In this document: one piece after another, positions 28,368 to 31,293 of the stretch | Position numbering within the stretch: the first letter of the stretch is position 1 | Layout of the letters: each line of letters starts with the position of its first letter | DNA from: Methanobacteriota archaeon | GTDB lineage: Archaea > Thermoplasmatota > E2 > DHVEG-1 | Assembly (NCBI GenBank): GCA_017885605.1 | Contig: JAFNFT010000089.1 | Location: 1-43,502, forward strand | Length of the DNA: 43,502 bases | Direction of reading: 5' to 3' | Made by a program: the position numbers and the translations under genes | The notes under the pieces: generated by a model | The model's input: the letters and a program-made list of their open reading frames with translations, nothing else | What the model was told of the DNA's origin: nothing | Database searches by the model: none

Positions 28368-28958
28368 TCATTTTTTTATTGCCTTCATCCCGCCATCAAA
28401 TGCTTTCTTATTGACATCTTTATACTTTTCAGGGACGGCCTCAAGGATTGTTTCCAATAACACATCAGACGTGAATGGTAATACTCCACTTGCCGCAAGT
28501 GCCCCAAGCATCACCGTATTTTTCGTAATAATCGCGCCTGCATCCTTTGCGATCTTTAATGCATCGACGGTAAACAACTCAGCATGCGCTGACAGCTCTT
28601 TGAAGATTTCCTCGACTTTTGGGTACTGCTCTCCACCCACTGCAACAGTAAATGGAATAATCGGATTAATATCTGTAATTACTTTTGTTTTTTTATTCAC
28701 ATAACAGATGTTCCGCAATGCTTCAACCGGCTCCATGCTCATCAAGACATCCGCGGTCCCACTCGGCAGTAACGGGCTGGAGACATCTCCCATCCGAACC
28801 GTACATACGACTGCCCCACCTCGTTGCGCCATTCCATGGATCTCTGAGACGAACACTCCGACCTTTGCGTTCACCGCGGCTTTGCCTAAAAGATTCGCAG
28901 CGGTAATCACCCCTTGTCCGCCGACACCCGTGAGGACGATACTGGTTTTTTTCTTCAT
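28368..28958 (-). CDS. iorB: Indolepyruvate:ferredoxin oxidoreductase, beta subunit
   Basis: A 196-residue gamma-domain-type subunit of 2-oxoacid:ferredoxin oxidoreductases. It works with IorA to turn aryl pyruvates from aromatic amino acids into aryl-acetyl-CoA, reducing ferredoxin. Family features are the GVGGQGVITAANLLGKAA loop near the start, the VSEIHGMAQRGGAV motif and the central PLLPSGTADVLMSMEPVEAL segment. The start is ATG 28958, which overlaps the iorA stop (ATGA), a sign of translational coupling. An upstream in-frame start would add 22 residues that look like read-through of iorA coding sequence. Confidence 0.95.
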   Translation of the reverse strand: MKKKTSIVLTGVGGQGVITAANLLGKAAVNAKVGVFVSEIHGMAQRGGAVVCTVRMGDVSSPLLPSGTADVLMSMEPVEALRNICYVNKKTKVITDINPIIPFTVAVGGEQYPKVEEIFKELSAHAELFTVDALKIAKDAGAIITKNTVMLGALAASGVLPFTSDVLLETILEAVPEKYKDVNKKAFDGGMKAIKK

Positions 28959-30835
28959 TGGGTTCCCTCCGCTGAGATCGCGCCAAACGGACAGACCTGC
29001 GCGCAGTTCCCACAACCATTGCATTGTGCTGCATCGATGTGAACGCTGCCGTCCTCCGCGAAATACAATGCAGGGCAGCCGAATCTGCCAATGCAGGTTT
29101 TACAGCGTTTACAGATCTCCTGATTAATCTGGTAGAGCTGGATCTCCTCCTTTGCTTTTCGTTTCCGCTGCACCTCAAGTAAGATGCAGGGTGATTTGCT
29201 GATTACAACCGAGGGGCCTTTGAATTCTATTGCTCTTTTGAATGCGGCGGTCGTTTCTTTGATCTTGTTGGGATCTACAATTTCGATATGTTCGATGCCG
29301 CAGCCTCTCACGACATCCTCGACTTTGATGAGTTTTGCTGGTCGTCCCATCCCGTCATAGGGTGTCCCCGGGTGTGGTTGATGACCGGTCATTGCTGTGG
29401 TCCGGTTATCAAGGACTGTGATGACCACATCATGGTTGTGATGCACGGCATTGATAATGGGTGGGATCCCGGAATGGAAAAACGTTGAGTCTCCCATGAA
29501 TGAGATGATCTTTTGATCGGTCGCAACGGAGAAACCGCAGGCCATCCCCGCGTTGGAACCCATGCAGAGGAGTACATCTGCTATCTCAAGTGGTGGTTCT
29601 TTGCCTAGCGTGTAGCATCCGATGTCTGTTGGATAGACTGTGTCTTTTGGTGCTGCTTTTTTGACTGCATAATATGTGGCTCGATGTGGACAGCCTGGGC
29701 AGAGCGATGGGGGGCGTCGTGGGGCTTTCAATGTGGATTGAATTGGTTTTGGGAATGGGGTTTTTACCTTGAAGATTTTTGAGAATGCGTCAACGACGAT
29801 ATCCGGTGTGTACTCATAGAGTCGGGAGAAATGACCGGTGGATTTCCCGTAGATCTTCACGTCGGCACCAATATCATATGCTAATTGCTTGAACTGGTTC
29901 TCAAGGAACGGTTCGAGTTCTTCGACCATCACAAGGGATGAACAAGATGAGATGAATTTCTCGCACATGGCACGGGGGATCGGATGGGTCATCCCGAGTT
30001 TGAGGATCTTCACATTCAGATTCAGCTCCTCTGCCATCTCTTTGACATACGTATAAGAAACACCGGAGGTGACGATCCCAACGTCCTTTGGTTTTCCGAT
30101 TGTTATTATTTCGTTGAATGGTGATTTCTCTGAGATTTTCTCTGCTTCCTCAAGCTGTTTGAGTAATACCGGGTGTTTTGCCCGTGCGGTCGCAGGGACC
30201 GTGACGAGCAATGGGTCTTTTTTAAAGAACCCTTTTTTGCGTGGCTGCTGCAATGCATGAAGCGTGATCGGACCTCGCGCATGGTTCAACCGTGTCGTTG
30301 TCCGTAAGAGCAAGGGAAGTGAGAGTTTCTCAGAGATATCAAACCCGATGCGTGTCATCTCCTTTGCTTCTTGTGGTGTGGTCGGCTCGAGCATTGGTGC
30401 GCCGCCGAACAACGCATAGTACCGGTTATCCTGTTCGTTTTGTGATGAATGACAGTAGGGGTCGTCCGCAGAGACGATGATATGACCGCCGCGGCAGCCC
30501 ACGTACATGTACGTCATGAATGTGTCGCTGGCGACATTCAGACCGACATGTTTCATACAGGTCAGTGATCGTAGACCACAGAACGATGCGGCAGCAGCGA
30601 CCTCTAAGGCGACTTTTTCATTGACGGAGTACTGGAAATAAAAACCTGGGTCTTTGTTCTGCCGGGTTGCTTCTTTTGCGATCGCGGAGAACGTATCAGC
30701 GATCTCCGATGCGGGCGTGCCCGGGTAGGTGGTTGCGACGTCGATGCCCGCCTCAAGGGCCCCACGGGTGATCGCTTCATTTCCTAAGAGCAGTATTTGC
30801 TTTCCGGGTTTATCTTCTGTGATTTCAGACATCAT
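28955..30835 (-). CDS. iorA: Indolepyruvate:ferredoxin oxidoreductase, alpha subunit
   Basis: A subunit of about 626 residues carrying thiamine diphosphate and two 4Fe-4S clusters. The N-terminal part (about 15-200) has the GNEAITRGALEAG and ATTYPGTPASEI signatures. The thiamine-diphosphate domain (about 370-540) includes CPGCPHRATYYAV, MGDSTFFHSG and LDNRTTAMTGHQP. The C-terminal ferredoxin domain holds two cluster motifs (CKRCKTC...GCP at about 575 and CNGCGNCAQVCP at about 600). The start is uncertain among ATGs at 30844, 30835 and 30832; a GGTG motif a few nt upstream favours 30835. The promoter is the AT-rich box at 30893-30901. Its presence fits a peptide-fermenting metabolism fed by the secreted peptidases. 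Confidence 0.95.
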   Translation of the reverse strand: MMSEITEDKPGKQILLLGNEAITRGALEAGIDVATTYPGTPASEIADTFSAIAKEATRQNKDPGFYFQYSVNEKVALEVAAAASFCGLRSLTCMKHVGLNVASDTFMTYMYVGCRGGHIIVSADDPYCHSSQNEQDNRYYALFGGAPMLEPTTPQEAKEMTRIGFDISEKLSLPLLLRTTTRLNHARGPITLHALQQPRKKGFFKKDPLLVTVPATARAKHPVLLKQLEEAEKISEKSPFNEIITIGKPKDVGIVTSGVSYTYVKEMAEELNLNVKILKLGMTHPIPRAMCEKFISSCSSLVMVEELEPFLENQFKQLAYDIGADVKIYGKSTGHFSRLYEYTPDIVVDAFSKIFKVKTPFPKPIQSTLKAPRRPPSLCPGCPHRATYYAVKKAAPKDTVYPTDIGCYTLGKEPPLEIADVLLCMGSNAGMACGFSVATDQKIISFMGDSTFFHSGIPPIINAVHHNHDVVITVLDNRTTAMTGHQPHPGTPYDGMGRPAKLIKVEDVVRGCGIEHIEIVDPNKIKETTAAFKRAIEFKGPSVVISKSPCILLEVQRKRKAKEEIQLYQINQEICKRCKTCIGRFGCPALYFAEDGSVHIDAAQCNGCGNCAQVCPFGAISAEGTQ

Positions 30836-30892
30836 CAACACCATTGAGGTAAAAGATGCGCAATTCCCCTGGGTGTGGTAAAAAAAGAACAG

Positions 30893-30901
30893 CATATAAA
30901 T
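30893..30901. promoter_or_regulatory. Shared TATA box between iorA and a putative ncRNA
   Basis: The box catataaat reads as a TATA element both ways. On the minus strand it predicts transcription start near 30871, about 30 nt before iorA. On the plus strand it predicts a start near 30920, at the first stem of the structured RNA. Confidence 0.45.
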
Positions 30902-30919
30902 CTAACCCTACTCGGAGAT

Positions 30920-31090
30920 ACCAGGAGGGCAACCTTCCTGTGATGGCGCACCTGCATCACTACTTGCATATCCATCTACAAACAAGGTTATTATAACAGG
31001 ACGTAATTCTTTGGCCTGGAAGGAATTAAGCTGGTAGTTGTAGAGTGCATCCCATCCCTCCTAGTGAGACCAGCATCCTTCCCTTTTTTG
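30920..31090 (+). ncRNA. Putative structured non-coding RNA
   Basis: This stretch of about 170 nt has no plausible protein but strong secondary structure. At 30922-30940 CAGGA pairs with TCCTG around an inner GG/CC and a GCAA tetraloop. At 30940-30960 GTGATG pairs with CATCAC. At 31018-31082 GGAAGGA/TCCTTCC and GCTGGT/ACCAGC form a two-part stem with an ATTAA/A internal loop, and T6 follows at 31084-31089. Alternatively AGGAGGG near the 5' end could pair with CCCTCCT near 31060. A TATA box at 30893-30901 sits at the right distance. I could not match it to SRP RNA, RNase P RNA, 5S rRNA or a known riboswitch. Confidence 0.55.
31018..31089 (+). terminator. Hairpin and T-run ending the putative ncRNA
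   Basis: Thirteen base pairs in two perfect blocks (7 + 6) are followed after one C by six T residues. It may be both a structural domain of the RNA and its termination signal. Downstream at 31098-31120 lies another small inverted repeat, CCATG/CATGG. Confidence 0.5.
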
Positions 31091-31293
31091 TTCTAAAAAA
31101 AATTTTTCTTGCCATGACACGGCATGGTTTTTTTGCACAAATACGAAAGTATATGTACTCAACGATGGTTACAGAAAAATTGGAGAGATTAAGAAGGAAT
31201 TATTGGGATCACTTACACGACTACCATATCTGCTTGGTGTCCTGATTTTTGCGACTTCTTGACTGAAAAAAAATACTGGAGGGTTGGAGAAAT

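Follow-up and report, generated by a model that had tools for sequence, protein, structure and literature searches.

The intergenic interval upstream of iorA in the window (the whole 43,502-nucleotide stretch of DNA analyzed here) carries no evident protein, as an earlier note had also found. This raises the question of whether the interval encodes an RNA, how far such an RNA extends, and on what it might act. The answer set out below is drawn from comparison of the RNA, its structure and distribution, its complementarity, its specificity for one ftsZ paralog, and joint changes of small RNA (sRNA) and target. On this basis, the window very probably holds one copy of a Thermoplasmatota trans-acting antisense sRNA on ftsZ mRNA, which probably blocks translation.

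Extent and promoter of the RNA gene

A covariance model matches the window at 31018-31082 (E = 6.7e-21). Together with alignment of relatives, this delimits the type A copy of the sRNA, composed of the conserved RNA and a T6 terminator, at 31018..31089 on the forward strand; the terminator-like TTTTTT run occupies 31084..31089. The earlier note had proposed a 160- to 180-nt transcript from a TATA box shared with iorA, and one RNA spanning 30920 to 31090 (about 170 nt) would fit the 85 to 88% identity that most genus members having this copy retain across the whole interval (BLAST, 99 relatives). Outside the genus, however, conservation in other genera and families is largely confined to ~31018-31088, a part with its own promoter, which makes the longer RNA very improbable. 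Since distant relatives keep the part from ~31018 with their own BRE/TATA at the right distance, the conserved RNA is, as judged from sequence, about 70 nt long, with 31015-31018 as the probable transcript start.

In a direct comparison, the distant copies open with the same stem as the window RNA and carry a BRE/TATA, either GCGAAAA plus CATATATA or GCGAAAAAGG plus TACTTAAAA, about 25 nt 5' of the RNA. The corresponding window stretch is GGTTATTATAAC, which places the probable sRNA TATA box, TTATTATAA, at 30988..30996 (forward strand). The TATA box at about 30893-30902, with the TATA-like TTTATATG at 30894..30901 on the reverse strand, reads best as the promoter element of iorA itself. The divergent iorA gene (28955..30844, reverse strand; Pfam TPP_enzyme_C, POR_N, and Fer4) has its start judged from relatives, the longest ORF starting at 30895. 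A GNRA hairpin (~30921-30940), previously counted as part of the RNA, sits between the two divergent promoters, 5' of the sRNA's own TATA, and is not kept outside the genus. The divergent orientation relative to iorA does hold for this copy, but iorA adjoins just one copy of the family.

Two further elements flank the gene. Type A copies in relatives have an 11-bp repeat, TACATATTTAT TTACATATTCA, 5' of the promoter; the equivalent upstream element in the window (30948..30985, forward strand, identified by eye) is degenerate and reads CTACATATTTATTTACATATTCATCTGCG in relatives. The repeat is a possible operator which, if real, would give the iorA-side copy separate control. Just 3' of the sRNA, a second hairpin with a T-run (CCATGACACGGCATGG TTTTTTT, 31111-31135) is kept within the genus.

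Structure of the RNA

The layout of 31018-31089 is GGAAGGA-ATTAA-GCTGGT-(33 nt)-ACCAGC-A-TCCTTCC, followed by C and TTTTTT. The two-block stem with an asymmetric internal loop and trailing T-run noticed earlier is thus present, and it is the conserved part. On the forward strand, the outer helix P1 pairs GGAAGGA (31018..31024) with TCCTTCC (31076-31082), based on sequence and fold, and P2 pairs GCTGGT (31030..31035) with ACCAGC (31069-31074), as marked by double changes across families. The conserved loop GTGCATCCCATCCC lies at 31045..31058 (forward strand), and a second segment, CTGGTAGTTG, at 31031..31040 (forward strand). Across the family, the loop UGCAUCCCAUCCC is almost invariant, whereas the outer stem changes in sequence per clade yet remains complementary.

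The fold of the 191-nt interval by itself is modest (z = -2.2; 6 of 200 shuffles as good). RNAalifold returned no pairs on the cross-clade alignment A2 because the helices shift register between clades; registers were subsequently split, and shuffled flanks were used as the control. Across 82 non-redundant copies, with flanks shuffled and the loop fixed, the mean fold z equals -3.35, and 212 of 8,200 shuffles were equally stable. The relatives' copies thus fold better than versions with shuffled flanks, indicating more structure than expected by chance. In alignment A5, 86.6% of cells pair, versus 34 to 55% in slid versions, and 17 cells changed on both sides, a number reached by none of 500 shuffles; the count of pairs with a double change was not above that of the shuffles. 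A P3 stem within the loop is partly supported (80% of cells pair, with no pair changed on both sides). Covariation analysis, which the earlier note had suggested as a check, therefore does reveal compensatory changes in relatives.

Distribution and genomic context

Rfam 15 gave no match at the gathering cut-off for the window interval or for three type B loci, and at E values up to 10 the interval's sole hit was opuB, a chance match on the opposite strand. This bears out the view of a structured non-coding RNA that matches no known family. A covariance model (R1; 27 sequences, 13 pairs) matches 289 of 392 Thermoplasmatota genomes, representing 117 of 147 genera, at E ≤ 0.1. Among these phylum genomes, R1 found families f36, f13, and f14 mostly without the RNA, and Thermoplasmataceae-like families without it; in six genomes of f36, FtsZ is missing as well. 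Named genomes yielded at least 117 stretches with AGTGCATCCCATCCCYTCY when scanned, and the record titles among the matches listed are nearly all Poseidoniales, Methanomassiliicoccales, and other Thermoplasmata. The few off-phylum titles among them were judged to be chance from their sequence context. A reversed-pattern control for the motif counts is biased, as the reversed word contains TAG, and was given no weight.

The genome that holds the window (G000) has two strong copies, the type A copy next to iorA (contig C89) and one behind an LSm gene (G000:C5:14038-14112). A structured element at G000:C17:5813 (L217), with loop ACATCCCATCCCCTCCTCC in the stem TTGTAGAGCC/GGCTCTACAA behind a TATA-like stretch, is possibly a third, divergent family member. 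Elsewhere in this genome, at G000:C87:4950 (L056), an exact GGGATGGGATGCA lies behind a TATA-like stretch, 5' of a short ORF of unknown kind. Family f1 also contains a recurring element, GGGACGGGATGCATTGGAT(A/G)GGAGGAA...GGAAAGCAG, at G000:C61:4708 (L066), L272, L284, and L263; it has no Rfam match (gathering cut-off for L066).

The genes that adjoin the copies vary by clade. The f1 copies have LSm upstream and urocanase downstream (both confirmed in Pfam), while type A copies, including that of the window, are flanked by iorA (Pfam) and a ThiD-like gene (named by eye). Also named by eye are a coiled-coil gene and an SRP54-like gene beside Methanomassiliicoccales-type copies, and methionine-aminopeptidase-like and pilin-like genes beside Poseidoniales copies. 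A riboswitch or other cis-regulatory element would be expected to have the same kind of gene downstream of each copy, and these clade-varying neighbors (urocanase, SRP54-like, pilin-like, ThiD-like) argue against such a role. The several copies in many genomes and the copies on viral contigs might also suggest a functionless small mobile element, similar to a MITE, that carries a terminator-like hairpin. Such an element would be scattered, non-syntenic, and present in many near-identical copies; the family instead has mostly one to five copies per genome, neighbors conserved within clades, and stems that diverge but stay paired. We consider a mobile repeat extremely unlikely.

Among 20 motif-bearing viral contigs, 3 have the motif inside a long, family-type stem. 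Two of these (IMGVR 3300042816_000267 and 3300027276_000137) represent the same stretch, in which the copy (L196:3986-4036; L197 around 4376) lies between structural genes, near a phage-capsid gene. On the third (IMGVR 3300033463_002572), the copy (L207:4972-5024) is flanked by the genes for the terminase large subunit and, probably, the portal protein.

Complementarity to the ftsZ leader

When the own genome was searched outside the RNA copies, the exact complement of the loop was found at G000:C81:4301. This locus was considered as another RNA copy and rejected, as it is the leader of ftsZ: the site lies 78 nt 5' of a gene whose product has Tubulin/FtsZ and FtsZ_C domains, and it closely follows a ribbon-helix-helix ORF. 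The conserved loop GTGCATCCCATCCC is the exact complement of GGGATGGGATGCAC (G000:C81:4301-4314), and the second segment CTGGTAGTTG is antisense to CAACTACCAG. The leader, which reads GGGGATGGGATGCACCCC, hairpin, CAACTACCAG, GGAGG, ATG, holds the complements of both conserved sRNA segments in antisense order; in its predicted fold, the site is partly folded. The same arrangement occurs in G014 and nearly so in G009, and in the distant G193 an exact site again lies 5' of an ftsZ gene. In all five loci read, the target ftsZ follows a CdrS-like ribbon-helix-helix gene. The sRNA genes (G000:C89 and C5) are unlinked to ftsZ (C81) and have a predicted promoter and terminator of their own, based on the TATA and T-run in relatives. 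An unlinked gene with its own promoter and terminator and leader complementarity beyond chance are two features of a trans-acting antisense sRNA with a DicF-like mode of action, which would also change target expression in a pairing-dependent way.

In many genomes (e.g., L251 at 1500, and L345), GGAGGGGATGGGATGC forms part of the target site and could serve as Shine-Dalgarno (SD) sequence and start codon for a short ORF (MGC...) within the leader; in some genomes this ORF is in frame with ftsZ. Archaeal initiator tRNA begins with a GGGAUGGGAU-like stretch. It was considered as a partner and rejected, as none of the exact GGGATGGGAT sites in this genome (11 in total) was recognized by eye as a tRNA; in 12 near-match loci, Rfam identified only two tRNAs, both away from the sites.

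The length of the exact complementary runs differs between lineages, and sRNA and leader change together. For the window copy, the match is 14 nt plus CTGGTAGTTG, compared with 16+10 nt for the type B copy of G000, 18+11 in G009 (from the window's family), 20+10 in G062 and G068, and 21 in G066. In G061, from another family, 33 contiguous nucleotides are complementary, where a TAG-to-TTG change in the sRNA is met by CTA to CAA in the leader. In family f10, a 19-nt run with the 5' arm GATAGGCTGGTAGTTGTTA joins the G064 sRNA to the G065 leader; these genomes represent two genera of this family. In G177 (30 nt, from a distant family) and G151 (26 nt), it is the 3' half of the RNA that pairs. The predicted direct RNA-RNA contact finds its strongest evidence in this joint change.

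Specificity across the phylum

The leaders of 80 ftsZ genes were compared. In families f7 and f2, every genome examined carries the site with one or two mismatches in the leader of its second ftsZ paralog, and first paralogs mostly have three to six, with exceptions such as L358, L381, and L403 (two). The site is exact in the ftsZ leaders of G086 and G099 and, after a further search by protein, also in G124, G136, G199, G223, G282, and G350. Duplex z scores against shuffled leaders (dinucleotide-block shuffle) have a median of -4.6 for the own sRNA and the chosen target leader in 35 genomes (27 below -3), a set of leaders picked with the site in mind. For leaders of other ftsZ paralogs, the median is -0.9, with 1 of 24 below -3.

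The unbiased comparison consists of two 400-kb scans. In G009, scanned on both strands, the ftsZ leader ranks first with the genome's own type B sRNA (-54.4 versus -47.7 for the next site) as well as with the window's sRNA (-48.7 versus -43.4). In G177, it is second only to the antisense strand of the sRNA gene itself (-80.2 versus -68.8 for the next). The predicted pairing is weak in G056, G121, G189, G167, G093, and G092. By lineage, weak pairing is seen in the one Poseidoniales genome tested and in several f25 genomes. For 22 of the 35 leaders, the score with a different family's sRNA equals or exceeds that with the genome's own sRNA, because the loop is common to the families and it is mainly the loop that pairs there.

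Proposed mechanism and alternatives

The hairpin would display the loop UGCAUCCCAUCCC, and base pairing may begin between this loop and GGGAUGGGAUGC(A/C) in the leader of a single ftsZ mRNA. In the window's family and nearer relatives, the duplex would then extend into the 5' arm (CUGGUAGUUG and variants); some Methanomassiliicoccales-type genomes would use the 3' arm instead. In f1, f2, and f7, the paired stretch ends beside the ftsZ SD, where a duplex would probably block FtsZ translation. Given this position, translational repression, the effect of DicF (PMC5069750), appears likelier than other outcomes. We infer that the RNA is transcribed, that the duplex forms in the cell, and that the sign of the effect is negative, possibly with LSm as a helper. 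Beyond this, we lean toward a sRNA and ftsZ leader that have co-evolved across the phylum in two registers, by lineage, and toward tailed-virus copies that could stop host division; viral copies may act on host ftsZ.

Several other readings share part of this evidence. The C-rich loop CCCAUCCCCUCC resembles the 16S rRNA anti-SD, so the RNA might act as a general anti-SD sRNA that pairs with many ribosome-binding sites of the GGAGGGGAUG kind, ftsZ among them, and other near-matches do occur at gene starts, e.g., those of EarA-like genes in G034, G014, and G009. We hold this as a tentative alternative, since the ftsZ leader is ahead by a wide margin in both unbiased scans and pairing extends past the SD-like part into lineage-specific arm sequence. 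The outcome of pairing could also differ from repression. The leader of G000 is itself folded, and pairing could open it; alternatively, pairing could stop translation of the short ORF that the site (GGAGGGGAUG) can start. Activation of FtsZ synthesis, or a leader that serves as a sponge titrating the sRNA, nevertheless seems unlikely to us, as the paired stretch in f1, f2, and f7 borders the ftsZ SD in the manner of DicF repression (PMC5069750).

A loop that is nearly invariant while its stems drift could instead be mainly a protein site, for LSm or a KH-domain protein, with the RNA as a scaffold or sponge, and the f1 type B copy does have an LSm gene directly upstream. This would not account for lineage-specific complementarity to the ftsZ leader that reaches 33 nt, and we rate it as improbable. 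Under the preferred reading, an antisense sRNA on ftsZ, the loop shows stronger conservation than a single target would demand, which makes further targets or a protein partner likely. EarA-like HTH genes (PF07381) have GTGGATGGGATGCA at the start codon in G034 (L270, L273, and L276), G014 (L283), and G009 (~1109776); they are a possible second target, judging from this match.

Relation to known regulators and significance

The closest parallel in mode of action is DicF from the Qin prophage of E. coli, a 53- to 72-nt RNA that pairs at the ftsZ ribosome-binding site and represses translation, with a proven need for Hfq (PMC5069750). Both are trans-acting sRNAs that pair with the ftsZ leader, by prediction in our case, and DicF is virus-borne, as some copies here are located on viral contigs. 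The likeness concerns the mode of action, there being no known sequence relation. Unlike DicF, for which repression and chaperone are proven, the RNA described here is archaeal, chromosomal, and phylum-wide, and its pairing would begin in a hairpin loop and spread into an arm. Other bacterial RNAs described as acting on ftsZ mRNA or division, as predicted here, include StfZ, described as a cis-antisense RNA of the ftsA-ftsZ region (PMC9628754), and a Klebsiella sRNA regulator of cell division (PMC10907235). In contrast to StfZ, the archaeal sRNA gene is unlinked to ftsZ.

The cdrS-ftsZ2 arrangement is reported to be conserved across archaea, and the control described for it in haloarchaea is transcriptional, through CdrS and CdrL; the main text of that study does not contain "small RNA" or "post-transcription" (PMC7439475). 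The target leader identified here is similarly situated between a small ribbon-helix-helix gene and ftsZ, but the predicted layer of control is post-transcriptional, unlike the transcriptional control described for cdrS-ftsZ2. Our literature search found no paper on an archaeal ftsZ sRNA or a conserved Thermoplasmata sRNA, and no trans-acting sRNA for an archaeal division gene. To our knowledge, targets have been established for few archaeal trans-acting sRNAs.

If the proposed pairing is true, this RNA would provide an archaeal sRNA model as clear as DicF-ftsZ, with a target that can be read from co-varying sequence, and it would add a post-transcriptional layer to the control of archaeal cell division. 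It would also supply an RNA family for the annotation of many genomes, among them those of Poseidoniales and Methanomassiliicoccales, and of some of the viruses of these archaea.
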